NCBI GenBank assembly: GCA_003290165.1
Contig: QNQO01000590.1
Coordinates: 248,001 to 312,000, forward strand
Length of the DNA stretch: 64,000 bases
Direction: 5' to 3'
DNA from: Berberis thunbergii
Lineage: Eukaryota > Streptophyta > Magnoliopsida > Ranunculales > Berberidaceae
The notes beneath the pieces are model-generated. The model worked only from the letters and a program-made list of their open reading frames with translations, was not told the origin of the DNA and searched no databases. Of this stretch, positions 11,130 to 53,809 are shown piece by piece. The position numbers were made by a program, and so were the translations under genes. How positions within the stretch are numbered: position 1 is the stretch's first letter; every line of letters starts with the position of its first letter.

Positions 11130-14100
11130 TTAGAGTGAATGATCAGAAAATGCAAATGAGCAGCTGGATGATCCTTGCAAGACCATACTCCGAGTTGGTG
11201 GGGGTGGAGATGACACAGTTAGTGAGCCACCCTTGCAGAGATCTTGATCTGACCTGATGACATCTACGTGTCTGATCTCCTTGAGCATAGCAACTATGTC
11301 CTTCATCATCGGACGGTCATCAGCTCGGGTGTTGATACATAAGAATGATACTGCAAGTGTTTGAAGAATTTCATGTATCTGATGATCAGGCCTCCCTTGC
11401 AGCTTTGAATCAAGTATGTCAACTGGGTCCTTCTTGCTGTTTAAATGATCTCGAACCCATTGAACCATGTTTACGCCTCCAGGTAATGTTGGGTCTAGTG
11501 GATGTCTCCCTGTCAAGACTTCAAGCAAAACTACACCGAAGCTGTATGTATCACTCTTCTCATTGATACATTGCGCTGAAGCATGCTCTGAAAATAGAGA
11601 GACCAAAGTTTAGATTGACTAGTAAATGCCAAAGAAAGAAAAGTGGAAAGTGAATAGAATGGTTAAGATTCTTACCAGGAGCCATGTACCCATATGACCC
11701 TGCAAGCTGAGGTTTGAGATTCAATTTGTATTTTTCATCATCAGCATCACTATTCACAAGTCTGGCTAGTCCAAAATCTGCCAAGTAAGGCTCAAACTTA
11801 AGACCCAATAATATATTCATGGCCTTGACATCCCCATGCATGATAGCCGGGAGGCAGTCGTGATGCAGGTACGCAAGGGCGTGTGCTACCCCTAACACGA
11901 TGTCAAACCTCGTTTCCCATTCTGCAGCCCCGTTCCCACCTCCGTGAAGAAGTGCGCTTAAGCTCCCATTGGGGAGATAATCATAGAACAACAGCTTCAT
12001 GTTCTGATTGGAACACCAACCCAAAAGTCGCACAATGTTCCTGTGCCGAATGGATCCTAGGGTTCGAATTTCAGATTCGAATGCCCCCGACTCCTCGGAA
12101 GACCACATCTTCTTCACTGCAAGTGTTACCCCATTGAAATAGGAACCCGATAGACAACACCGGAACTCCCAGTGCCTATCACATTGGCTGATGTCAAATT
12201 GCGGACAATATCATCAATTGAGAAATCAAGCTTCTGGTAAAGTGTCATCTCCCATTTATCATCATCATCTGTATGCCCTTTCATTTCTACATTCGCCCGT
12301 ACTAATGTGTACACTGCAAACAGCAGTAGTATCACACTGGCACTGATGAGAAGAGCCATTGCTACTTTCAGTGCTGCTGATTTGGGGTGATGAGAAGCTC
12401 CCATGCGGACGGCAGATGCCACCACCCCATTTGGGATGTAAAGTGCCTTGTTTCCTGTAAGATCGTTAGCGGGAGTCTTCTGAAAATGGGGTGTCTGGCA
12501 ATTCACCAGAGAATTCATTGTATGATATATTCAGGGCAACCAGGTTCTGAAGACTGGCAAGCATGTTGACATTCCCGGCAAGCTTATTATGGGAGAGATC
12601 AAGAACACCCAGCTTGTCAAGATCGGAGAATTGGGATGGTATTTCCCCCGAAAGCTGATTACAGCTGAGATTGAGAGAAATCCCAAGTGCTGGAATCTCG
12701 CCAATTCCTTTGGTATATCTTCAGTGAAAGCATTGTCACTAAGATCTAATAACTGTAACCTAATACAAGAGACAAGCTCTGGGGGAATCCTACCTGAGAT
12801 TCGATTCTTCCTGAGATTGAGTTTAGTCAACTCAGTTAAGGATCCAAGATTGGGACTCAATGGACCTGTTAGCCTATTATCCGAAATGTCCACGAATTGT
12901 AGACTTTTGGGCAATGTTTCAGGGACAGAACCAGTCAGGCCATTTGAATGGAGATCAAGAAACTCAAGATTGGGACATTTGGATATTGATGGGGGGATTT
13001 CTCCTACAAACCTATTGCTACTCATGTCAAGGAAATTGAGGTTTTCTAAATTTCCTATTTCACTTGGAATTGTTCCTGCTAATCTGTTATCGTCCAAACG
13101 AAGCCGATACAAATTCGTGCAGTTTCCAATATCTGGAGGTATAAAACCAGATATATCATTAGACAATAAGAGTAACTTTGTGAGGTTTCTCAATCCAAAA
13201 CTTGTTTTGGTATTGATCCAGAAATGTGGTTGTAAGACAAATCAAGAGCCTGGAGATTTTCGCAGTCAGCTAAGCTGTCTGGGATATTCCCAGTAAGCTT
13301 GTTTTGCCATGCGAAGAACAATGTTAAGCTCTTCAAGTTGCCAATTCCAGCTGGTATCTCACCAGCTATGCTATTGTTGTCAAATTCAAGATGAGCCAAA
13401 GCTGTGCAGTTTGAAATTTCAGAAGGTATAGTACCTGATAATTGATTAATGCTCAGCTGAAGCTCTTGAAGTCCCCGAAGATTTCCGAAACTTGTTGGAA
13501 TGCTTCCTGTCAACATATTCTCTGATAAGTCGATGACCATCAGCTCCTTGCAGCTCCCTAGCTCATCCGGTATCGTCCCCACCAGGCTGTTCTGCCACAA
13601 CAGCAGACTCTGAAGCTTTCGAAGCTCCCCCATTCGCTTTGGTATCGAACCTGAGATTGAATTCTGATACAAGTACAGGTTCTGCAATTCAGTGCAGTTT
13701 CCAATCTCCTCTGGAATGGGACCGGATAAGAGCGACGTATAAATCGCTATAGTTTGAATCTTTTTCAAGGAACCTATGGAAGGTGGAAGACTTCCAGTTA
13801 TGCTGGTTTCTGCAAGACCCAACACCATCAAGTTACTGCAATTGCCAATCTCTGACGGCAGTTCACCTTTCAGATTTTGGTTCCCACCAGCTCGGAAGAT
13901 TTCGAGCTTACTCAATTTTCCAATACTTTTTGGGATTTCGCCACTGAGTTGATTGTCAAAGACTGTCAGATACATCAAACTTGAAAGGTTTCCAATATCA
14001 AAAGGAATTCCGCCTTCTAGCCGATTTGAATTAAGCCAAAGACTCCGCAACTTGCTTAGCTTGCATAGTTCTATTGGAATTTCTCCTGAGACAGCATTGC

Positions 14101-14506
14101 TACTGAGATCAACTAAGCTCAATTCTTTACATTCTCCGAGTTCTTTAGGAATAGGACCACTTATATTGGTTGATGAAATGATAAGAGTGCTCAAAGACTT
14201 GAGAGATTGGAAGTTTGAAGGCAATTGGCCTTGCAAAGCCAATGACTTCAAGCTTATCTGAGTTACTAGGCCATTCGAGTTGCAGGCGACTCCGAACCAT
14301 TTGCAAGGGTTCGGGTCAGTAGGATTCCATGTTCTCAACGCATCTGTAGAGCTGTTTAGGCTGTTTTTCCATGAAAGAAGTGCATGGCCTTGTTCATCTA
14401 TACAGAAGCAATTCAAGAAAAGGAGAGAGTTTATTGAAAGAAGGAAGGTGAAGGTGAAGATATTGGAAGAAAGAAGAAAGAAGAGATTCTTTGTGTTTGA
14501 AGTCAT
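11130..14506 (-). CDS. LRR receptor-like kinase, RGI3-like, broken by four small frameshifts
   Basis: This is a plasma-membrane LRR-XI receptor kinase, closest in my memory to Arabidopsis RGI3 (At4g26540), a receptor for root meristem growth factor peptides. Order: signal peptide, LRRNT (LLSWKNSLN, CKWFGVAC), more than 20 LRRs (TIAIYTSLLSGPIPEEIGNC is typical), a TM segment (MALLISASVILLLFAVYTLV), and a kinase with GTGSSGVVYRV, VKKMW, HGDVKAMNILL and ADFGLA. HGD instead of HRD makes it a non-RD kinase, as in RGI3. It ends CSFAFSDHSL. One phase-1 intron (11588-11675) splits APE. Length is about 1097 codons, as expected. The frame breaks at 13197-13200, 12697-12701, 12480-12486 and 12134-12135. 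At least three of these look like the loss of a single base. No in-frame stop lies between the breaks. Sequencing indels or very recent loss are both possible. Confidence 0.9.
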
Positions 14507-30814: not shown

Positions 30815-31720
30815 GGATTTGCGCGACTTTAATAAAATGACCATAACTTGCTAATTTCAAAACATTTTCAAGTGATTCAAGTTGTGTTTATTAAATAACA
30901 ACTTTTATGTTTTGGATAAACTTGAGAATCGGTATTGATCGAGCACATAAGTTGGTCGAAAGTCAGAAATACTATCCCATTTTTATTGCAAGACAAATTT
31001 GCGCGACATTAGTAAAATGACCATAACTTGATCGTTTTAAAACATTTTAAAGTGATTCAAGTTTCATTTATTAGGTAACTCGGAACATTATAATTTTTAT
31101 GTTTTGATCAACTTGAGAATCGGTCTCGATCGAGTACATAAGTTGGTCAAATGTCAGAAACACTATCCTATTTTCATTGTGAGACAAATATGCACAACTT
31201 TAGTAAAATGACCATAACTTGCTAATTTCAAAACATTTTCAAGTAATTCAAGTTATGTTTATTAGATAAATTAGAGTACTACAATTTTAGTGTTTGGATG
31301 ATCTTGAAAATCTATCTTGATCGAGTATATAAGTTAGCAAAAAATCAGGATAACTATTATGTTTTCATTGTGAGACAGATTTGCGCGACTTTAGTAAAAT
31401 GATCATAACTTGTTCATTTCAAAACATTTTCAATTGATTCAAGTTGTGTTTATTAGATAAATTAGAGTACTATAAATTTTGTGTCTCAACTTGAGGATCG
31501 GTATTGATCGAGTACATAAGTTGGCCAAAAGTCAAGAATACTATCCCATTTTTATTGCAAGACAGATTTGCGCGATTTTAATAAAATGATCATAACTTGC
31601 TCATTTCAAAACATTTTCAAGTGATTAAAGTTTTGTTTATTAGATAACTCATAATACTACAACTTTCATGTTTTGATAAGCTTGAGAATCAGTATCACTT
31701 GAGGGTCTAAATTGGTCGAA
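30815..31720. repeat. satellite array, five units of about 188 bp
   Basis: The marker GCGCGAC/GCACAAC recurs at 30821, 31001, 31192, 31383 and 31570, so periods are 180-191 bp. Each unit carries AAATGACCATAACTTG, AAAACATTTTCAAGTGATTC and TTGAGAATCGGT. Units differ by about 10-20 percent, so the array is not very recent. Unit B carries a single copy at about 37850-38060. Confidence 0.88.
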
Positions 31721-31739: not shown

Positions 31740-32265
31740 TAAGTTTTTGGGTGGTGGTGGTGAAAAGGTAAAAAGCAAAACACAAATAAAAAAGCCCAAC
31801 AATTATTGGGTATCCAATTGGCGAACATTCTAGCCCAAAAGGCTCATTCCTTTCTTCAACCTCGCTTCATCGCCATTTTCACCCTTCAAATCAAACTCAC
31901 CTCTTCATCAACGATCGATTGCAGCAAAGTGTTTGTGAATTCTCTGTTATCTGAGGTTCGTTTTCTTCTATATTCAACTTATCTTTCTTTTCATTCAACT
32001 TATCTTTCTTTTCATATCGATTGAAGTTGTATTTTATGTTCATATTTATAGTTTTGAACTAGTTTGGATGATTAGGGGCGAATTTGCGTTCGTACTTCGT
32101 TTAGGGGTTTTCGGGGTTTGAGCCTTTGAAACTGTGAAAGTTTTGGGGTTCAGGGTATTGGATTGGAGTCTGTAGTCCTCTAAACCACCAAACTAAACCA
32201 CCAAATTTCCCTCCAAAATGGGGTTTTTAGGGTTTCCCAGTGGAGATTTTCTAGTAGAAGTAGAT
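31740..32265 (+). promoter_or_regulatory. duplicate of the TPR-gene promoter and leader exon, cut by a retroelement
   Basis: This matches 38085-38587, directly upstream of the TPR1-like gene: AAGCCCAA... site II-like motifs, the leader CTCTTCATCAACGATCGATT, a donor GAGGTTCG, and intron with GGGTTTTTAGGGTTTCCC. In unit A the copy is followed by the LTR retrotransposon rather than a gene. Whether it still starts transcripts is unknown; if so they would read into the 5' LTR. Confidence 0.7.
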
Positions 32266-32555
32266 TGTTAGGATACCAATCCTATTTAGTATTTACTTGA
32301 GATTAGAATGTCTTAGTTATAACAATATTCTATATAGGGAATATTAGCTTGTTTTGAATTAGGAGTTATTGTTTGATTAGAATTAGGATTGAATTCAATT
32401 AGGAAGTATTATTCTTTGCTTTCAGTTATAAATATATATGATGTAATAGAGTTTAGGTAAGCAATACAAGTTTTATTTAGTTTATTTGGTGGTTGATCCC
32501 CAATCAAAGGATCTAGGTGGTTTGATCTCCAATCAAAAGGTCAAGGTCTCTATTA
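32266..32555 (+). repeat. 5' LTR of the LARP1-carrying element
   Basis: The LTR runs from TGTTAGGATACC to GGTCTCTATTA. It contains the TATA-like TATAAATATATATGATG at 32426-32442, which is the likely promoter. It is followed by TC and then the primer site. Confidence 0.85.
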
Positions 32556-32557
32556 TC

Positions 32558-32570
32558 TGGTATCAGAGCA
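32558..32570 (+). other. primer-binding site, initiator tRNA-Met type
   Basis: TGGTATCAGAGCA is complementary to the 3' end of plant initiator tRNA-Met. It starts two bases after the 5' LTR, as expected. Confidence 0.88.
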
Positions 32571-32674
32571 TCATCGATTCTGAGCCAAATTTTTTCTTGT
32601 TATTTCGTTCTTCACCCTCCGCAACAACCTCCGATCTCCCATATCTTTATCCCAAAAAAAAAAAAAAAAAAATT

Positions 32675-33125
32675 ACCTCGCATCAGCACCGCCGTCGCCA
32701 TCATCAGCATCAACTTCGCAGCAACCGCCGTCGCCATCATCATCAGCATCGACTTCGCAGCAACCGCCGTCGCTACAGCACCGCCTTCGCCACAGCACCT
32801 CCCTTCGCAACATCACCGCCCTTAGCAACCGCACCAACCTTCGCAACAACACCGCCCTCGTAATAGCACAACCTTCGCAGCAACCGCCGTCGCCGTCACT
32901 CCTTCTTCATCTTCGATTCAGCGCATCATCAGCATCATCTTCGATTCCGCGCATCATCTTCCTCTTCGATTCAGCACATCATCAGCATCATCTTCGTTTC
33001 CGAGCATCTTCATCTTCAACCGCAGTCTGTTTCTTCCTCGCAGTCCGTCCCTTAATCGGAACCTCGACACCATCTTCAATCGCAGTCCGTCCCTTAATCG
33101 CAGTCCTCTTCCATCGAAACCTTCT
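32675..33125 (+). repeat. GC-rich low-complexity leader of the LARP1-carrying element
   Basis: Diverged tandem copies of short units such as CGCAGCAACCGCCGTCGCC and ATCATCAGCATCATCTTCG fill the leader between the primer site and the ORF. The composition is unlike the surrounding AT-rich DNA. No long ORF reads through toward 33327. Confidence 0.8.
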
Positions 33126-33326
33126 TCATCGCCTTCATCACATAGAGATATTCAGTGAAGCAGAAATCGCCTTCATCACAAGTAGCAGCAGAAATCGAAA
33201 AAAAAAAAAAAAAACTATTGCTGAATTTCAGTGAAGCAACAGTAGCAAAACCGCGATTTGCACCCATAAAGATATTCACACCGGGATTTTGGACCATCGA
33301 GATTCGCACCAACAACCCTTTTTATA

Positions 33327-35048
33327 ATGACGATTACTAAATTACAAGAGCAGGTCAATGCGCTTACTACTCAAGTTAGCGGGATCTCTTCCCGCCTATA
33401 TACACTTGAGACCACTAATGCCACTATTCTAGAGACATTAAGGAATCTCCAGCCATATCGCCTGGCACCATACGTTCACCCGGAACAACAACGACCAATT
33501 ATTCCAATTTATGGCAAAGCCCTTGATGACGCTAGACCCAAAAATTCTGATATTGTTGTTTCCAAGGCACCACCAACATTGGCCACCACTCCAAGGCGCA
33601 ATCCTGTGCAGAGACCATTCGTGCCACAAAAAATAGATGAGTTTGGTAGCCATAATCCTTACCATAAACACCCACCTCCCCATCATCCAAAAGTGGGTAT
33701 TATTAAGTGTAACCATCCAACAATTGGCGTGCCGCCCTTTCCTGTAACCATACCTTATCCCCTACCACCAATGCTGCCTGTTTTTCAACCAGTTGTACCT
33801 ACTCCACACATTCCAGTACATGAACATGTTTACCAACATTATCCTGGCAACTTCGATCCTCATATGTTAAGATCTCCATATGGAACCCCCGCGCATAATT
33901 TTGGTGCACCACTTGGTCATGTTGGTGCTATGGATTACAATAGAAGCTTTCAACCTCCACCGAGAGAAACCAATGCATATGCTGACAATTTTGCTAATCG
34001 GAGACAAGTTGTACACGAACATGCTGGTCGTTTAAATAAATTACGGCGCCATCATCGAGCATTCAATCCGAGAGAAAATATTAGCATGCATCGAAGTGGA
34101 CCATGGCCTTTTGTGTGGCCCCCTCCCTATCTTGGTCCTAGTCCAGGGCTTATGGAGGGCCCTTGTTTTTCTAGCCCTATGTATCATCATCCAAGTGCAT
34201 TAGGAGGTCCTCCTCTTCGCGTTATTCCACATCCTTGGATTCCTGCAACTGCCTCAGAGACATTGATTTTGAGGGCTAATATTGTTAAGCAAATTGAGTA
34301 TTATTTCAGTAATGAGAATTTGAAAAAGGACAACCACTTGATTTCTTTGATGGATGACCAAGGATGGGTTCCGATAACCAACATTGCTGACTTTAATAGA
34401 GTGAAGAGAATGACTACAGACATTTCTTTAATTTTGGATGCAATGCATAGTTCTTGTAAGGTAGAAGTTCAGGATGACAGAGTTCGAAAGCGTGATGGCT
34501 GGTCGAAGTGGGTCTTGGCTTCTAGACAAAATGCATCTTCAAATGATCAGCAAATGCAAGTCGATGTACGAGCTACTATGACAAGGCTTAGTGAGTGCAA
34601 TGATAATAGTGACAACAATGATAGCAATGCATTAGACACAGATTCAACTATTTTAATTGCTCGGGAACATGCTGGAAAGTTCGATACCAACTTTCGTATC
34701 ATATCTGATGTTGAAACGGCTAATTTTATTGTACCTAAAACTGAGAGTCTCTCTTGTTTGACAAAGCAAAAATCACACAATTCCCAATCAAATAAGCCCC
34801 GGAGAGACTACTTGATTGAGGATTCTTTGAAAGCCATAATAAGCCCATTACACGCTGGCTTAACAAGGGGACCGACCGTCCTGTGGAGGAAGCTACTTGG
34901 GAAGACTATGAGCAGTTTCTTGTTCTTTTCCAGATTTTCAAGCTTGAGGACAAGCCTTGTTTCAGACAGGAGGATACCAATCCTATTTAGTATTTACTTG
35001 AGATTAGAATGTCTTAGTTATAACAATATTCTATATAGGGAATATTAG
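33327..35048 (+). CDS. LARP1-derived La-motif ORF inside the LTR retrotransposon
   Basis: 573 codons without a stop. Residues 1-45 form a coiled-coil-like start (LQEQVNALTTQVSGISSRLY) that reads like the head of a retroelement gag. Residues about 70-310 are Pro/His/Phe-rich and follow the order of plant LARP1 linkers (PPFPVTIPYPLPP, FNPRENI, PPPYLGPSPGLM). Residues about 312-398 are a complete La motif: RANIVKQIEYYFSNENL, LISLMDDQGWVPI, IADFNRVKRM, and the end KRDGWSKWVLAS. The motif's key aromatics (Tyr-Tyr-Phe) are kept. No intron interrupts it, so it came from a spliced RNA. The LARP1 C-terminal DM15 region is absent. The last roughly 60 codons run across the integrase-like tail in the wrong frame and into the 3' LTR. 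LARP1 binds mRNA 3' or 5' ends and controls translation; any role here is unknown. Confidence 0.85.
   Translation: MTITKLQEQVNALTTQVSGISSRLYTLETTNATILETLRNLQPYRLAPYVHPEQQRPIIPIYGKALDDARPKNSDIVVSKAPPTLATTPRRNPVQRPFVPQKIDEFGSHNPYHKHPPPHHPKVGIIKCNHPTIGVPPFPVTIPYPLPPMLPVFQPVVPTPHIPVHEHVYQHYPGNFDPHMLRSPYGTPAHNFGAPLGHVGAMDYNRSFQPPPRETNAYADNFANRRQVVHEHAGRLNKLRRHHRAFNPRENISMHRSGPWPFVWPPPYLGPSPGLMEGPCFSSPMYHHPSALGGPPLRVIPHPWIPATASETLILRANIVKQIEYYFSNENLKKDNHLISLMDDQGWVPITNIADFNRVKRMTTDISLILDAMHSSCKVEVQDDRVRKRDGWSKWVLASRQNASSNDQQMQVDVRATMTRLSECNDNSDNNDSNALDTDSTILIAREHAGKFDTNFRIISDVETANFIVPKTESLSCLTKQKSHNSQSNKPRRDYLIEDSLKAIISPLHAGLTRGPTVLWRKLLGKTMSSFLFFSRFSSLRTSLVSDRRIPILFSIYLRLECLSYNNILYREY
34841..34990 (+). 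pseudogene. Ty3/gypsy integrase C-terminal tail remnant
   Basis: In the frame offset from the LARP1 ORF, 49 codons read KPITRWLNKG, then VEEATWEDYEQFLVLF and FKLEDKP, ending TAG in the 3' LTR. The EATWE and LEDK pattern is typical of the C-terminal end of plant Ty3/gypsy polyproteins. It is the only pol sequence left and marks the 3' junction of the captured gene. Confidence 0.65.
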
Positions 35049-35252
35049 CTTGTTTTGAATTAGGAGTTATTGTTTAGAATTAGGATTGAATTCAATTAGG
35101 AAGTATTATTCTTTGCTTTCAGTTATAAATACATATGATGTAATAGAGTTTAGGTAAGCAATACAAGTTTTATTTAGTTTATTTGGTGGTTGATCCCCAA
35201 TCAAAGGATCTAGGTGGTTTGATCTCCAATCAAAAGGTCAAGGTCTCTATTA
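34970..35252 (+). repeat. 3' LTR of the LARP1-carrying element
   Basis: AGGATACCAATCC to GGTCTCTATTA. Compared with the 5' LTR it lacks GATT after TTGTT (about 35075) and has C for T in AAATACATATG. A purine-rich CAGACAGGAGG lies at its start, in the place of a polypurine tract. The first TGTTA of the 5' LTR is not preserved here. Confidence 0.85.
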
Positions 35253-35654
35253 TAGATAGATGGATAGATAGATAAAAACTAACAAGCGAGTTGAATTGTG
35301 GGACTAATAACAATTGTGTGCAACAGCAATATTTTGGGGTATTGGGAGAATCAGGGTTTGTAGTAGAGTAGTGTTGTTCGGTGAAAGATTATCTGGTCTT
35401 TCATAGGTGTATTATTGTTTAGATGAATGAACTATGGAATTTGTCGAATTCTGATAGTGCGAATAGTAGGGAAATGTCAGAAGGAATAAGGCTCTTTCAT
35501 GAGAAAGTCCCATTTGGCAAACAAGGAATAAGAAAAATACCCTTAAAACATGGATATACACACTATTTTAATTCAAATAATTGGAACCGAACTCGAGCCG
35601 TTCTACAACGAATCTAGATCGTTTAATAATTTACACTATATGAATCGAATCGTT

Positions 35655-37402: not shown

Positions 37403-38084
37403 GAACCATTTGGAGCAAATCGGTCTGATTTGGTTTGAAACCGCAATTCTTGGACTCATTTGCCCACCCATAAGTTGAAATTGCTTCCATGGTCGCTCAG
37501 GAATTCTATATTACAAATCAGAATGATGTTTGAGGTTGAAAATAAAAGATGGCTAATATTTCCCAAAATATATGAATCTAACGGATCACATAGAAGAGAT
37601 AAGTTTTATTTAATGGTTGAGATTCACTTCATCCAATGGTTGAGACTTAAAGTTAGCATTTGTGTTTTACCTTCAATCAATCCTTAATAAGAGTGCATGA
37701 GTTCGACTCCCATAACTAACATTTTAATATTTATTTATTTTTCTTCAATTGTTGATGGTGGTGATTAGGCGTGTAAGTATGAAGAATGAAAACTTGAGGG
37801 TAATTATGTTTTGATAAGTTTTAAACTTTTATTATACCAACTTTTGATAAGTTGGCCAAAAGTCAGGAATACTATCCCATTTTTATTGCAAGACAGATTT
37901 GCGCGACTTTAATAAAATGATCATAACTTGCTCATTTCAAAACATTTTCAAGTGATTCAAGTTGTATTTATTAGATAAATCATAATACTACAACTTTCAT
38001 AATTTGATGAGCTTGAGAATCAGTCTCAATTGAGGATTTAAATTGGTCAAAAGTTACCCTATTTTCAACTTAAGTTACTCAGTT

Positions 38085-40149
38085 TTTTGGGTGGTGGTGG
38101 TGAAAAGGTAAAAAGTAAAACATAAATAAAAAGCCCAATAGTTATTGGGTATCCAATTGGCGAACAGTCTAGCCCAAAATCTATAAAGCCTAAAAGGCTC
38201 ATTCCTTTCTTCAACCTCACTTCATCTCCATTCTCACCCTTCAAATCAAACTCACCTCTTCATCAACGATCGATTGTAGCAAAGTGTTTGTGAATTCTCT
38301 GTTATTTGAGGTTCGTTTTCTTCTATATTCAACTTATCTTTCTTTTCATATCGATTGAAGTTGTAATCTATGTTCATATTTATTGTTTTGAACTAGTTTG
38401 GATGATTAGGGGCAAATTTGCGTTCGTACTTCGTTTAGGGTTTTTCGGGGTTTGAGCTTTTGAAACTGTGAAAGTTTTGGGGTTCAGGGTATTGGATTGG
38501 AGTCTATAGTCCTCTAAACCACCAAATTTCCCTCCGAAATGGGGTTTTTAGGGTTTCCCATTGGAGATTTTCTAGTAGAAGTTGATAGATAGATAGATAA
38601 AAACTAACAAGCGAGTTGAATTGTGGGACTAATATCAGTTGTGTGCAACAACAATATTTTGGGGTATTTGGAGAATCAGGGTTTGGAAGAGTAACAACGG
38701 AAAGCGATATCGGTTTGGATTTGTAGTAGAGTAGTGTTGTTCGGTGAAGATTATCTGGTCTTTTATAGGTGTATGTATTATTGTTTTGATGAATGAACTA
38801 TGGAATTTGTCGAAATTCTGATAGTGCGAAATTTGGCAAACAAGGAATAAGAAAAATACCCTTAAAACATGGATATACAGACTTCCCAGGAATGGCCATT
38901 CCAACAGCCTACAATCCCTAAATTTATTGTCTAAGATTCCTATGTCGTGTTCTTTCCAAATAGGTAGCATTCGATGAAAAACAATAGTGGAATCTTCAAC
39001 TTCTCAAAAGAGACTCAATGGAACGGATCGTGGAAGAGCTCAAGTCACCCCAAATATCGCTGTCCAATTGGCAGTGAAGAAACTTCTGTGAATCACTTTC
39101 TATTTCCATGTCACACAACAAACAAAACCTATCAATCTAAAGAAGCCTACCCCAACCCAAGGTCTATGTAAGATCACAAACCCCTAATGGGATTTCCTTT
39201 CGTCATACCAATTTCACTGAAGTGAATGAACCAGGGTTTTTAATTGGTTCTTACGCTTTTCTTTTTGTAATTACTTGGAATATGTTTTTTTTCCCTAGAC
39301 TTTAGATAATTAATAACTCCTTTTTTTCAACAAACGCGGGTTAAGTAAACTGTCGCTCTACAAATTGCATCATTACAGCCTAGAAGAGGAAAGAAAATTG
39401 CACAAATACTGTTTGTTCTCCAATAATATGTAGCCAAAGGGAGAAAAGTTATGTTGAATTGTGTTATAACCAGCTGTCTTTGGAGATCTATCTTGTGGTA
39501 AAGTGTTATTTATGTCTTTGGAGATAAATTTTCTAGTTACAGTGTCATTTTCACACTATGAATTTGATGCATGTCTGTTTTTCAATTGTCTTATGTTGGT
39601 TTTGTGTTTATGTTGATGGATGGAATCTTAATAGAGATTCTATTGAAGTTTTCTGTTAAATTCTAAGTCTTTGGAAGTGTTCCTTGACAGTTTGATAAAC
39701 TTACTATTATAGACGATGAAACACAAAGAGGGATACAATTTTGATTAAGTTTTTGAGACAATAATTATCTTCTATATTTTGACTTCTTGGTGCTTAATAT
39801 CTAGTGGAAATTGGAACTGGAATACAATACAGTGACACACTGTCAGCTAAGCATTAATGAAGCTGATACTTGTTAACGATTGTCAATAGGTGGACCAAAA
39901 AGATATATGCTTGACTTGAATTTATTCTGGCACTGAAAGTGTTTTATTGTGGATTTCATATTTGCATTTTTCTATGAAGCAGGGCAGCTATGAGCTTTTA
40001 GAACTAAGCTTTCGATGGCACTAAACATACTTTATCTTTTGTAGTGACGTTCAAATCTTAAGCAGAAATTTAACACTGATTTTTGCTCTTATGAATTCCA
40101 CCAGGGTTTCCTTAAAACCTCTACAACTCAACCTTCGGTTCAATTGATA
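38085..40149 (+). promoter_or_regulatory. promoter, leader exon and leader intron of the TPR1-like gene
   Basis: Site II-like AAGCCCAAT and AGCCCAAAATC, then TATAAAGCC at 38181, precede a pyrimidine-rich leader (about 38200-38310) ending in the donor GAGGTTCG (38308-38315). The acceptor CCACCAGGG is at 40099-40107. The 5' UTR resumes at 40105 and the ATG is at 40150. The intron is about 1.8 kb. This 5' region is the part copied in unit A. I see no other gene between 38880 and 40100. Confidence 0.6.
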
Positions 40150-43100
40150 ATGGTGGTGATAGAACCAGCTACAACATCTGTTGAGGATCAAAATGCTGAA
40201 AAACATGTGAGCCCTATTGAAGAAGATCAAAATGCTGAAAAACATGTAAGACCTATTGAAGAATCAGTGAGTGAGGAACCAGATGGCTTTGAGACAGCAA
40301 GCGAAGGTGAAGAAGAGAAGGAAGGTGAAGGCAGCAAAGATGATGAAAATCAATCTGGGCATTCAAAAGAAGATTCTTATGAGGATGCATTGACGGATGA
40401 GCAGCTGAAACAGGTTGTTCTCATCTCCCGTCTCTAAAACTCATAAAACATCTGTGTGACACGTTTTTGCATCACTTTACACTATCTTTACAAACACTGA
40501 TGAGTTGTAGAGCTAGAAGCCAATCAGCTGAAGTGAATGGGATCAATTTCATTTTAGTGGATTAACATTATATCCTATATTTTGTATTCAAATCATCTTA
40601 TTTCTTTTGTTTCGTGTACGTAGAGGGCTTTAGACAAAGCTAACGATGCAAAAGCTGAAGGCAATAAACTTTTTGGGTCTGGGCAATACGAAGAGGCATT
40701 GTCACAATACGAGCTTGCTCTAAATGTTGCATCCGACGTGCCTTCGTCAGTGGAGATTCGTTCAATATGTCATGCAAATCGAGCTGTATGCTTCTTGAAA
40801 TTGGTATGTTGAAAGTGCATACTCAAGTGATATCATGTAACAAATACGGTTTCTAGATTAAAAAAAGTTGTTAAAATCACCATTTCATTATGTTGCACAT
40901 CGTAGTTGGGGAAACATTGAAAATGAAAGAAAATGGTGTTATGAGTGAGACGGTTCTCAAGCACATGGTATTTGATTATGCTTTTTGGACCTTTGAGTGT
41001 GTTACCTAGTTGCAAATCATACAAGTGTCATGGTTGGATGTTTTGATGAACCCGTCAGATTGAACTAATGTTTATGGAACACTTAACATATCTTCATCCT
41101 GTTGTCTTCCTTAGCTTGTTTGTTGTAAAGCCTTTGACTCTTCCTTGTTTCTCTTGCATATATCTAAGTCAAGTTTGGTTCATTTATTTTCTTCTTGCTT
41201 CATATATTATTACTTGAATTCTTTTTAATGGTGAAACAATATGCCAGGGGAAATATGAAGAAACAATTAAGGAATGCACAAAAGCAGTGGAGCTAAATCC
41301 CACATATATGAAAGCTCTGATTAGGAGAGGAGAAGCGCATGAAAAGCTTGAACACTTTGACGAGGCTATTGCAGGTAAGTTTGGATTTCAGAATTCCTAT
41401 AGATGTAACTCACTCTATTTGAGTAGGGCCGTAGGGGTAAGCAGGCATAAGTAACAATAACTAAACCTCCTGCATAATGAGACCAATGTTTTTATTTTAT
41501 TATTTTATTTTTGTAGAAAGTAGAACTTACATTTAAAGCAAGATAACATCATTATAATAAATTTCCAAAGTGGAATTAAAGATGACCGTCATTCTGTGCC
41601 CAATTTACTAAAAGATATTCAAATCCCTGCGAACACCACAAGTTTGAAACTAGTCATTTATGAAGCACAATTTCCAAACACAAGCACAAAGAGATTGACC
41701 TACTCCATACCTCTTGGGTAAAAGGTACCCCACACTCAAGGAAAACATAATCCCTGGACTTCACACCATCCTTACACATCCTCTCAGTCACACGAGACAG
41801 ATTTAAGATTAAACTTGCATGTCCCTTCTAGATAACAGATCCCTCGTAGGAAGGCTATTCCTAAACAAACTCTACATAAAGTGATCGCTTGGGAGGGGAA
41901 TTTGTACCACATCAAGTACTAACCCTAAAGGAAAGATTTGGAACAAGAGGTTTTGGAAGGAAGGATGAGATAGCTAGTCATAAACTGAGGAAACTGAAAA
42001 GACCCCTTCCTTAGGTCACCGCTAAGAACAATGGTCTTCCTCCTGAAATCACTACACCATATTGGCATTTTTGTAACATCCCCTAAAACAGTATCACTTT
42101 TGAAGTGTAACAATTCACTTAACAACTTTACACATTTTCACAAACAAAATGATACAATAATAGTATCACCATGAAGAGTATGATTATAAAAGTGATACTA
42201 TTCATGGTGATCCAACTTATAGTATCATTTTTTTTGTGTTACTGTTTTTCATTTTTTAACTAAATTTAGTTTTGATTTGAAATTGTTTGGTGAATTGTAA
42301 CATCTCAAAAGTGATACTGTTTTTAGAGTTGTTACAAAAGTGCCAATTTGGTGTAGTGAATGGACTTTGAAGATAAGAGAGCACTGAGTTGGCTGCCTCT
42401 TATGCTTCAAACTCATTAGGAGCCCTTCTAAACTGACAGTTCTAACCAAAAACTTCTTTCAAACCATGCCAAACTCCCTCACCATTCCTTCCTGAAGTGC
42501 ATGCTAAGGAATGTAGGCAATATGCTACTCAAAGGAGAGTCACACTCCCAGACAAAAACATCAAGCTAACACTATTATTTTCTAGAGAGAAAAGAGAAGC
42601 CCCTCTCCTATGCTCAACCTTAATGTTCGGAATAGCCTAAGCCTTCTACAAATTACAATACGGTGTTATGATATATTTCGTAATCCACCATTTCCCTTAG
42701 GGTGTGTTTGGTTTCATGGAATCCATGAAGGGACCCCTATATTTTAAGTTAATTTGAGGTATAACTCCACATGCACTATTTGATTTTGTTATCAATGGTG
42801 GGAATGAAAGTCTCATGAACATGAGAATCACATGCCTTGGGGAACCAAGGAGTAGGATTCCCATGTTCATGAGACTCTCATTCCCACCATTGATCACAAA
42901 ATCAAATGGTGGATGTGGAGTGATATGTCAATTTAGCCTAAAATGTAGGGGTCCCCTCATAGATTCTCATGGCATAGGATTTCATGCAACCAAACACACC
43001 CTTAGTTCCATCATGCATACTTCTCTTGAATAATTATCCTTTGAAGGCTGAAAGGTTCTTTCACATGCCACCGAAGCCAATTCCCAAGAAGGGATGAGTT

Positions 43101-45852
43101 TTTGCACCTCCCTTTTCTATTTAATTAATTTGTGCCCAAACACCCACTTTTTATTTTGCTACTATTTTATTAGCTTCTTCACTAATATTCATGTACAATG
43201 TCATTCCTGTAGTAGTTAAATGGTCTATTTTTGTTTCTTTTCTTCTTAATTTTTTTTTTACTCTCCAGACATGAAGAAAATCTTGGAGTTAGATCCTTCA
43301 AATGACCAAGCTAAAAAAACCATACGGCGTTTGGAACCATTGGCTGCAGAAAAGCGTGAAAAGATGAAAGAGGAGATGATTGGTGAGTCCAGTGTATTGT
43401 CCTTCCTTATTAATCATGTTATCTTTTATGAGTCCTGGTGATCATGCATCTTTATTTCCAGTGTCATATGATTTATATTTCATGTCTAATGATCTTCCAT
43501 ATTTATAGGAAAAAAATCGCATAGATTTCACTTTGTTTCATGCTCAAATGAAGCAAACATAAATGCCAACATCTGTGAAATGTGGAAACACCTTCTACCT
43601 TCACAAACATCAAGAGACTACCAAGTTCGCAGATAAAAAAAAATAAAAAAAATAAAAAATAAGTTGCAGATCAAAACAGGTGTCCCTTTCGATAAAATCA
43701 AATAGATGACAAGAAAGTAAACTTTTTTTTTTAACCTTAACCCTCCCCACCCATGCCGCCAGCCGGGTTCGAATCTGCGACATGTGATTCTATCCGCCAC
43801 ACCTCTACTCTACCAACTCGGCCGGTACACCTTTGGCGACAAGAAAGTAAACTTGATCCTTTTATTCGATAATGAATTAAGATGCATGGATTGATTGAAG
43901 AGAATGTTAGAATATAGATCTGTGATCACAGTTTAGGGGTAAAGGTATGGATGATGATGAAAGATTAATTCAGAAAAATCCACCAACTCACTCTCTACTC
44001 GCCTTTGAAAGTACTTGCTCTTACTATGCTCGGAGATCACTTTTGTTTTGCTTTCCCTTTCTCTCTTCAATGGATGACTTCATCATAGTCCTTAGTTTGT
44101 AGCTGTAGCGAGTTGATATCTCTGTCCGATTTTGCTCTAAAGAATCTGTTTTTCCATATCACGCATCCTACAAAAAATTGAAGTTGCTAACGTGTACGGT
44201 TAAAACTCCAAATTCAGCTGTTAAAGAGAGCATAAAATGGAAGGAATTTCCATCACAATGTAAGTCAACTATAGTATCAGTTAAGGTGCCTAACTATTTC
44301 CAAGTTAGAGACAAAATCTTAACATTTTGTTTGGCAAATATGAAAGCATATAGTGCACTCAAGGTGCAGTGAGTCATCATTCTTCCTTGATTCGAATTCG
44401 AGCTAATTCCGCTATCGAAGCGTTGAAGGTGACGAGATTTGCCATTAATTGATCCTCATGAGGGTGCTTTAGGGAAATAAGGGTGACCAATATGAGCTGG
44501 TGTTTGTTGTCAGTCCCTCGTCTTCGTCTGCTTCCAACTCTTGACTATATATTAGTTTTTAGAAACGTAAGAGAATTTGAAGGTAGGAGATGATGGAATG
44601 GAAGGCCTGGGTGGTGGAGGTTTGAGGAAGGTGGCGGATTCAGATGGTACCTAGGAACCACCAATACTTTAAAACACCAATCATACCAATATCAAATACG
44701 AACTGGATGCTGATACGGTTCCGTTACGATCCTGTAAGGATTGGACACTCAACAGACAGGATATGTCCAAGACAGTCTTATGACTTGTGTTGTTTGTAAG
44801 GTGTTATGACTTATGACGAGGATGTGTATGTTTATGACTTGTGAGGTTTTTGGTTTAACAAATGAGCAATTGAATGACTTTGGTTTTTGTTATTAATTAT
44901 TTTACTAACGTAATTGTATGAGTTTATGGTTTATATATTGATTAATTTACTATATCTTTAATGATATTCAATATATTATTTAATGTCATATCATACCCAT
45001 ACCCGTATCCTAGTTTTTGAAAGTTTGTTGCATCATCGCATCCATACCCATACTCGTATCAATGCAACCCAGGATGATGCTAAATATAAGACGAGGTTGG
45101 ATAATAGATTAAAGAAGGTGAACCCTGGGGAGGATCAGATTTAAGCAGTGGAGGGGTAAGTCACAAGTGGAAGTGGGGAAGAAGCAACAGGACTAGTGAT
45201 AAGGGTGAAACAATATTCAAACAAAGGCAAAAATGATGTGCAGCTAGGCACCCCTTTCCAAGCATTTTGGCTACTTTTTTCATATCTTTCCATTCTGCTT
45301 TTGGTTTAGAGCGCAAAACACTTCATAGTTTGGATTTCATGATGCTCATTGAATACTTGATTGTTTTTGGAGTCCTGACATAATTTTGAGGATCGATATC
45401 TCAACGATTAGTCAGGTGTTTGGCTATTGATATGTGATTTTCTTTCCATTTTGTTGGGTTATATGGTCTAGTGCATGTGTGTTTGTGTTTGACATGTTTA
45501 TTTTTCTCTGTCAGTCTCAATTGGCTATTGAGCTTTCTGTAAGATTCTATTATGATCATTAGATTGGTAGCGAACAGGTGTGTATGTATCGTTCAATGAT
45601 AGGCTGTTTTGTTCCTTTGTGACTATTGATTAGGGTGATTGTCCTTTGTGTGCGTAATCATTTAATTACTAGCTCTTTGTTATTATATGCCCAATTGATT
45701 TAGGGCAGCTGAAACTGATCCGCATACTGTTTGCAGGAAAGCTAAAAGAAATGGGAGACTCGCTTCTAGGCCGTTTTGGGTTGAGCACCGACAACTTCAA
45801 AGCTGTTAAAGATCCGAACAGTGGATCATACTCCATTTCATTTCAGCGCTAG
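40150..45852 (+). CDS. TPR1: TPR protein, TPR1/TTC1-like
   Basis: This is a tetratricopeptide-repeat adaptor resembling Arabidopsis TPR1 (At4g30480) and animal TTC1, proteins that bind Hsp70/Hsp90 C-termini. Exons are 40150-40413, 40624-40803, 41248-41374, 43269-43382 and 45737-45852, giving 801 nt or 266 codons plus TAG with all phases consistent. Residues 1-90 are acidic and disordered, and include a 13-residue direct duplication (EDQNAEKHV.PIE at 12-37). Three TPRs follow: AKAEGNKLFGSGQYEEALSQ, then ICHANRAVCFLKLGKYEETI, then AVELNPTYMKALIRRGEAHE and KILELDPSNDQAKK. The carboxylate-clamp type residues (N in EGNK, N in HANRA, K and R in MKALIRR) are present. It ends KEMGDSLLGRFGLSTDNFK, typical of TTC1 proteins. 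Introns carry MITEs and a SINE. Confidence 0.93.
42050..42358. mobile_element. CACTA-type MITE in a TPR1 intron
   Basis: The terminal repeats CACTACACCATATTGGCA and TGCCAATTTGGTGTAGTG match as inverted copies over about 68 bp, flanked by AAT on both sides (3-bp target duplication). Internal AGTATCAC motifs mirror each other. It is 309 bp with no coding capacity. Relatives lie at 55430-55716, and a right end at about 45970-46030. Confidence 0.8.
42700..43001. mobile_element. Tourist-like (PIF/Harbinger) MITE, copy 2
   Basis: A 302-bp palindromic element starts GGGTGTGTTTGGTT and ends AACCAAACACACCC, flanked by TTA at 42697-42699 and 43002-43004. The TTA duplication and end sequence fit Tourist MITEs. 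The related copy at 23129-23429 sits in the SFT2 intron. Confidence 0.85.
43724..43837 (-). mobile_element. tRNA-derived SINE, minus strand
   Basis: On the minus strand, box A-like GGCCGAGTTGGTAGAG and box B GATTCGAACCCGG precede a GGGTTAAGGTTAA stretch and an A tail (T run at 43723-43732 on plus). A perfect 16-bp duplication GACAAGAAAGTAAACT lies at 43708-43723 and 43838-43853. It is in the fourth intron of the TPR1-like gene. Confidence 0.85.
45163..45355. repeat. dispersed repeat shared with 50451-50643
   Basis: About 193 bp, from TAAGTCACAAGTGGAAGTG to CTCATTGAATA, are over 90 percent identical to 50451-50643. The shared part includes an open stretch VEEATRLVTRVKQYSNKGKN that I do not recognise. 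One copy lies in the last TPR1 intron, the other in repeat block 1. Confidence 0.8.
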
Positions 45853-52828: not shown

Positions 52829-53809
52829 ATGGAAAAACACGTGATAATCTTAAAATTCTGTAGCTACAGACCAACATTGGAAGATATTAGAGATTCGATA
52901 CATCGAACCTGGGGGATCCTAGGCGATTTCTCGCTAGGTTTGCTAGACCAACGTCACGTTCTTGTCCGGCTTCAATTTGAGGCGGAAGCAAATAAAGTAT
53001 TGGCAATGGACTCTTTCTTGATTCGGGGAGTCCAATTCAAAGCTTTCCACTGGCATGATGGTTTCAGTCTGAAAGCAGATCCGATATCGGTTCCACTATG
53101 GGTAAAGTTGCCTAACTTGCCTTTGCATTTATTTCATCCCTCTCTTTTGAAAGCAAGTGTGAACTCTTTTGGTGTCTTTTTGCGCATGGATGATCATACT
53201 CTATGTCTTTCACGCCCGGGTTATGCCCGTGTTTGCGTGGAGACAACTTTGGCAGAAAAGTTACCGAGTAGAATTTGGATAGATAGATCTAACAATAGGG
53301 GCTTTTGGCAAAAGATTGAATACCCGGGTTTCAAATATTGTGATTATTGCTCATTGCTAGGACATCAGGAGGATTATTGCAGAAAAAAGTTAGGTCATAA
53401 GGGGAATGTGAGAACACCCAACTTGGTGAAAGAAGATAAGACTGATAAACAAAAAGTGGAAGCCAAAGTCCTCAAGCAACAATATGTCCCAGTGGTTAAA
53501 AAAAATAAAGTTTCAAAGCCAGAAGCTGGCACTGGTGGTGTAAAAAATAATCAGGGTGAGGAAATCCAGGAGGGAGTTGGTGTTGAGAGGTCGATGGTCA
53601 AAGATTCAGGGAATGTCATGTTGTCAAACAAATTCGAGTCACTTACGGAGAACATAGTTGAAGATGAGAGTAATCTAATGAATAATCAATTGCCTTGTAA
53701 GGCGAAGGATCCAGTCAGTGACATGGTAGAGCCAGAAACAACGGATGAAGGACTTCTTAAGGCGGGGTACACAGCTGTTGCGATTGAAAAAGTAATTGTA
53801 AGACAATGA
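52829..53809 (+). pseudogene. LINE ORF1: DUF4283 plus zinc knuckle
   Basis: This is the nucleic-acid-binding ORF1 protein of plant L1-like retrotransposons. The DUF4283 core (DQRHVLVRLQFEAEANKVLA, VPLWVKLPNLPLHLFHPSLL, PGYARVCVE) is followed by a knuckle CDYCSLLGHQEDYC at about residues 172-185 (C-x2-C-x4-H-x4-C). The frame is open upstream of 52829 back to about 52625 (SFAQILGN) except for one TGA at 52775-52777, so the true start is upstream and the ORF is interrupted. It ends VIVRQ at 53809, where a new frame opens. Confidence 0.8.

Follow-up and report, generated by a model that had tools for sequence, protein, structure and literature searches.

A recently inserted LTR element carrying a far-diverged LARP1A segment, probably captured from a plant host gene

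Introduction

A 2987-bp LTR element lies at positions 32266-35252 of the 64-kb stretch of DNA analysed here, which we call the window. It raises the question of what kind of unit combines a young insertion with a far-diverged and apparently still constrained host coding segment, a contrast that we consider worth following. An earlier note, made from the sequence alone, had read the locus as a young LTR retrotransposon whose coding space is a captured host LARP1 gene.

In maize, the LTR element Bs1 lacks a reverse transcriptase (RT), and its open reading frame (ORF) includes gag sequence. According to the available text of one review, Bs1 carries pieces of three genes, those for a proton ATPase, a xylan endohydrolase and a beta-1,3-glucanase (PMC13317346). 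The accessible parts of three papers present host gene capture by plant LTR elements as well documented (PMC3726574, PMC7264820, PMC13317346), and one of them counts 672 LTR-captured genes in rice, 1343 in sorghum and 424 in maize (PMC3726574). In the open-licence papers searched we found no LARP1-carrying LTR retrotransposon, nor was one evident by title among the matches listed, and "LARP" has 0 occurrences in the portion of the 2026 review that was available (PMC13317346). Thus host-gene capture by plant LTR elements is known, and a LARP1 cargo is, as far as we have searched, without precedent in the open-licence literature.

Results and discussion

A single young insertion

The element is bounded by paired LTRs in direct orientation (Table 1), which are identical at 282 of 283 aligned bases and differ further by one 4-bp gap. 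The primer binding site (PBS), TGGTATCAGAGC, begins two bases past the end of the 5' LTR and is presumably the complement of tRNA-iMet; a tRNA scan of the 64-kb window returned none. The target site duplication (TSD), TAGAT, is present on both sides. These three features had been described in the earlier note and are borne out here, the primer site being presumably of the tRNA-Met type. Because the TSD adjoins a GATA-type simple repeat, it is weak by itself, and more weight falls on an empty site in a tandem copy of the flank, 6 kb downstream. There, tandem copies of the two flanks (37847-38585 and 38584-38883) cross the insertion point without the element. The empty site backs the TSD and shows that the 3-kb unit entered as one insertion. 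It also rules out that the LTRs are unrelated. We observed one copy of the element in the window.

Table 1. Features of the element and of its insertion site (window coordinates)
Feature	Position	Strand	Basis or remark
TSD TAGAT, left copy	32261..32265		sequence inspection; empty site
5' LTR, 290 bp, TGTTAGG...CTATTA	32266..32555	+	LTR alignment
PBS TGGTATCAGAGC	32558..32569	+	two bases past 5' LTR end
Leader	32570..33326	+	CpG o/e 1.54 (on 32563-33326); A tracts 32654-32672, 33198-33214
Chimeric ORF, 573 codons	33327..35048	+	ORF list; stop codon within 3' LTR
First 58 codons, outside LARP1 match	33327..33500	+	LARP1A profile, tblastn, predicted structure
LARP1A-derived part, ORF residues 65-460	33519..34706	+	profile positions 82-495 of 1039
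La motif, residues 312-400 (Pfam La 319-374)	34260..34526	+	Pfam, PDB, AlphaFold, Foldseek
56-codon pol-like tail (...RPVEEATWEDYEQFLVLFQIFKLEDK...), other frame	34820..34990	+	reading-frame translation
3' LTR, 282 bp, without first 4 bases of 5' LTR	34971..35252	+	LTR alignment
TSD TAGAT, right copy	35253..35257		sequence inspection
Empty site: tandem copy of flanks without element	38522..38625	+	window self-comparison

Two LTRs could in principle stem from two insertions, and the locus might then be a LARP1 retrocopy flanked by LTRs by chance or through separate events. We regard this as very improbable, given a single TSD pair lying outside both LTRs, the near identity of the LTRs, the position of the PBS and an empty site at which the whole 3 kb is seen to have entered as one unit; the retrocopy reading would require an exact loss of that unit from the downstream copy. 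A parent LARP1A locus at this site was also considered. Four LARP1A proteins matched the window by tblastn only inside the element, which excluded a parent gene lying here.

The tandem-duplicated pairs around the element are 27831-29994/35559-37841, 31516-32264/37847-38585 and 35259-35564/38584-38883. Over 774 columns of gapped alignment the flank duplicates differ by 36 mismatches, and over a further 358 by 13; the LTR pair has 1 in 283. Since they are more diverged than the LTRs, the insertion is later than the local tandem duplication, and it is young. At a substitution rate of 1.3e-8 per site and year its age would be roughly 0.1-0.2 million years, a figure to which a single substitution gives no precision.

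The 3' LTR lacks the initial TGTT that the 5' LTR retains. As both U3 copies of an LTR element derive from one template, the loss at the 3' end most likely came after insertion. No clear polypurine tract (PPT) precedes the 3' LTR, the longest purine runs in 34850-34975 being 7-8 nt and the one at the LTR junction, AGGAGGA, 7 nt. With no PPT and a clipped 3' LTR the present copy is probably immobile, and further movement is unlikely.

The leader has a composition of its own. Over 32563-33326 its CpG o/e is 1.54 and its TpG o/e 0.35, compared with 0.52 and 1.39 in the LARP part of the ORF, and its two A tracts measure 19 and 17 nt.

A chimeric ORF with half of LARP1A

Between the LTRs there is a single long ORF, in which the host coding sequence lies in sense orientation. 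The La family (PF05383, E 1.5e-23) is the only Pfam family found in it at E up to 1, and the best PDB sequence matches are human LARP1 (E 1.8e-18). Pfam domains for gag, protease, RT, RNase H and integrase are absent from the ORF, in agreement with the previously noted loss of RT, protease and RNase H; the check covered the ORF, its start and the tail. All of the best 120 of 249 protein matches carry the La domain, and the named proteins among them are mostly plant LARP1A or hypothetical proteins. A second protein search, with a full-length match (P0004) as query, added longer LARP1A sequences from Aquilegia, Coptis, Macleaya and Papaver.

To delimit the cargo we used a LARP1A profile of ten proteins, eight of them named Ranunculales sequences and two unnamed ones that group with them. 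It matched most of the ORF (Table 1) with an E value of 5e-131 in a one-sequence search, so that the La motif and the LARP1-like linker reported earlier both hold, and LARP1 homology by profile search is found. The tblastn match with Macleaya LARP1A begins at 33501. At the other end the last ~50 residues of the match, to residue 460, are weak, and phmmer of residues 399-573 against the ten LARP1A proteins gave a best E value of 0.0035 (P0004, a 31-residue stretch). The LARP1 homology could therefore stop before residue 460. PF21071, which we take to be the C-terminal DM15 region, is present in 111 of the best 120 protein matches and was not found by Pfam in the ORF. Judged by sequence, the cargo is about the first half of LARP1A, consisting of the linker and the La motif without DM15. 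Plant LARP1A and the ORF have this region in common (profile positions 82-495), whereas DM15 and the sequence past position ~495 are found in LARP1A and not in the ORF. The conserved N-terminal MGAESWPAL of LARP1A aligns to YGK-AL in the ORF.

The ends of the coding space have another character. The first ~55 residues of the ORF resemble, we presume, a gag N terminus, and include a short predicted helix at residues 4-17. The tail containing RPVEEATWEDYEQFLVLFQIFKLEDK, which extends into the 3' LTR, resembles what we take to be the end of a Ty3/gypsy pol. The ORF reads this tail out of frame and ends inside the 3' LTR, as would be expected of a chance junction. Pfam returned nothing for the tail and three matches for the ORF start, all at E 0.12 and taken as chance. 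A protein-collection search with both non-LARP1 ends gave 38 candidates, none at E <=10, and tblastn of both ends against the 64-kb window found the element itself only. Searching the literature with the tail motif gave matches unrelated by title. The chassis may be Ty3/gypsy, the gag and pol ends being assigned by resemblance, to which the Pfam and protein searches add no support. The claim that the coding space is a captured LARP1 gene thus stands in so far as the ORF is LARP1A-derived, but the ORF is a chimera, in which the first ~55 residues and the tail are not LARP1, and LARP1A is represented by roughly its first half.

We put a probability of about 80% on a non-autonomous LTR retrotransposon, of probable Ty3/gypsy descent, that has exchanged most of its gag-pol for roughly the first half of the coding sequence of a host LARP1A. 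On this reading the LARP1A sequence would have been placed in frame behind ~55 gag-like codons and out of frame with a pol-end-like remnant. The available part of a review describes abnormal template switching among packaged RNAs as one of the capture routes in plant LTR elements (PMC13317346). The likely route here would be a switch of RT between the element RNA and a co-packaged, processed LARP1A mRNA, which would account for half a gene standing unbroken between the gag start and the pol end. Lacking enzyme domains, the element would need a helper, and helper proteins acting in trans may then have moved the chimera. Its movement as a family is something we infer, since a single copy is known. 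Its insertion here came after the local tandem duplication, as shown above. The LARP1 part has diverged strongly with its frame and La fold kept, either within the element or, before the capture, in a host paralog that evolved fast.

Divergence under constraint

The closest LARP1A among the matches listed is identical at 182 of 345 aligned residues (53%). Because the LARP1 part is only ~50% identical to its nearest known relatives among those matches, the capture or the divergence of the parent is old. The description of the element as young therefore applies to the insertion, with its LTR divergence of 1/283, but not to the cargo, which is not fresh. Neither a second copy nor a related element protein was found among the matches listed or in viral contigs, where the one pattern match to the ORF was unsupported by tblastn.

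A tree of 167 sequences places the ORF in a group with the LARP1A proteins of Coptis, Thalictrum, Aquilegia, Ranunculus and Kingdonia and with two unnamed proteins. Aquilegia and Ranunculus belong to the Ranunculales, and a taxonomy look-up placed Coptis, Thalictrum, Kingdonia, Macleaya, Papaver and Stephania in the same order. Support for the grouping is 0.864, with 0.019 for the node inside it. Stephania falls near the root of the tree, away from its order, which indicates that long branches are placed loosely. The tree gives the grouping of the ORF with Ranunculales LARP1A moderate support. The host itself probably belongs to this order. The ORF branch of 0.74 is the longest of all (median 0.088), followed by those of P0097 (0.69) and the Stephania protein P0023 (0.55).

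This branch is unevenly distributed along the protein. On the ORF branch the La part measures 0.335 against 0.795 for the preceding linker, a ratio of 0.42, compared with 0.65 for the other tips together. The ratio remained below 1 in 50 of 50 bootstraps, and relative to the other tips it is 0.63 (95% range 0.32-0.99). Because of missing data, three of the 167 sequences did not enter the partition trees, and ORF residues 401-480 were omitted from the constraint argument because of bad alignment (branch 3.1; 6 of 20 near-invariant columns kept). The ORF keeps 22 of the 23 La positions with at least 98% conservation, 35 of 38 at 90%, and 18 of the 28 linker positions at 90%.

We also simulated neutral decay of the 1188-nt LARP part in 2000 runs, with indels set at an assumed 10% of substitutions. 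At 0.05 per base the sequence was stop-free in 17% of runs and free of both stops and frameshifts in 0.25%, and at 0.02 per base the frame was still open in 8%. When only stops are counted, the 5% point falls at 0.07-0.1 per base. The unconstrained share of the divergence is therefore small and amounts to a few per cent per base, or up to ~0.1 by stops alone. Constraint on the La motif and an intact frame together argue that the long ORF branch is not mainly neutral decay. In statistical terms the comparisons show that most of the cargo's divergence was gathered under protein-level constraint.

It is possible that this constraint acted in the host. We give nearly even odds to a recent capture from a fast-evolving host LARP1A paralog, in which case the host gene accumulated the divergence and the cargo is a functionless passenger that has not had time to decay. 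The low LTR divergence would fit such a history, and so would the long branches among Ranunculales LARP1A, of which that of Stephania is an example, the occurrence of two LARP1A proteins of Macleaya among the matches listed (P0125 and P0133) and the frame left open in 8% of runs at an unconstrained 0.02 per base. However, no close LARP1A was seen among the best 120 matches of each of two protein searches, the 53% match being the top one, in a collection that may not include the host.

A La motif of the poly(A) 3'-end type

An AlphaFold model built with 35 sequences has block means of 82-96 pLDDT over residues 311-400 and mostly low values outside the La region (mean 56). The first six Foldseek matches are all human LARP1 LaM, with an rmsd of 1.4-1.5 and 48-49% identity. 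In the accessible text of a study of human LARP1, the LaM alone, with no RRM, binds the poly(A) 3' end, and Q333, Y336 and F348 are most critical (PMC9458460). Mapped by hand from the PDB alignment, these residues correspond to Q322, Y325 and H337 of the ORF. All 166 homologs share both Q322 and Y325; at position 337, 152 of them have Y, 10 have H and 4 have F. Of the 11 Ranunculales-group sequences checked, 8 have the histidine, as do P0014 and P0155 from outside that group. With the critical human phenylalanine replaced by H337, affinity for poly(A) is not assured. If translated, the ORF product would combine a short gag-like end with a La motif of the poly(A) 3'-end type, without DM15.

An old capture, selected within the element lineage, is a further reading, to which we assign a fair but less than even chance. 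The gag-La fusion would then serve the element, for example by guarding its poly(A) 3' end. The longest branch of the tree combined with intact La constraint argues for this, as do the two invariant contact residues and the ability of the human LaM alone to bind poly(A) 3' ends (PMC9458460, in the part available). It is weakened by the single copy, with no related element protein among the matches listed or in viral contigs, and by the histidine at position 337. We are more doubtful of the full form of the idea, namely that a non-autonomous LTR lineage adopted the LARP1 La motif as a working part, the selected gag-La fusion passing through many rounds of transposition, protecting or marking the element RNA via its poly(A) 3' end and perhaps acting as a competitor of host LARP1. 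The earlier note also raised the possibility that the element could make small RNAs against the host gene. Should an old selected capture prove true, this would be a retroelement that exploits a host module for the 3' ends of mRNA. The frame, the fold and most RNA-contact residues are kept despite the divergence, which makes the cargo a candidate, accessible to testing, for a captured gene serving its carrier instead of riding along.

Both Bs1 and the captured-element reading favoured here describe an LTR element with host coding segments in a chimeric ORF. In the available account Bs1 carries pieces of three genes (PMC13317346), whereas the present element has one contiguous half of a gene for an RNA-binding protein. 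The captured genes of rice, sorghum and maize are likewise host genes within LTR elements; that set, as far as its accessible text describes it, comes from a genome-wide survey with gene annotation (PMC3726574), in contrast to the single case here, which was examined for its fusion frame, its empty site and its fold. Set against the survey captures, the present cargo lies far from its relatives.

Genomic surroundings

The window is plant-like, with a GC content of 0.36 and LRR-kinase and TPR domains. In the tandem duplication (27831-32264/35559-38585) the upstream unit holds the element, and the aligned pieces are 88-96% identical with gaps counted. Repeats of ~200 bp at 30816-31532 all match one stretch, 37847-38054. 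Downstream of the element, 40048-45852 holds a gene with TPR exons (Pfam TPR_1, E 1.1e-08 in 41218-41451), presumably for a TTC1-type protein, and the duplicated flank may be the 5' leader of this gene. An ORF at 52829-53809 contains DUF4283 (E 3e-22), which is frequent in plant proteins linked to retroelements. On the minus strand, 11130-14506 holds an LRR receptor kinase gene with LRR and kinase Pfam domains.
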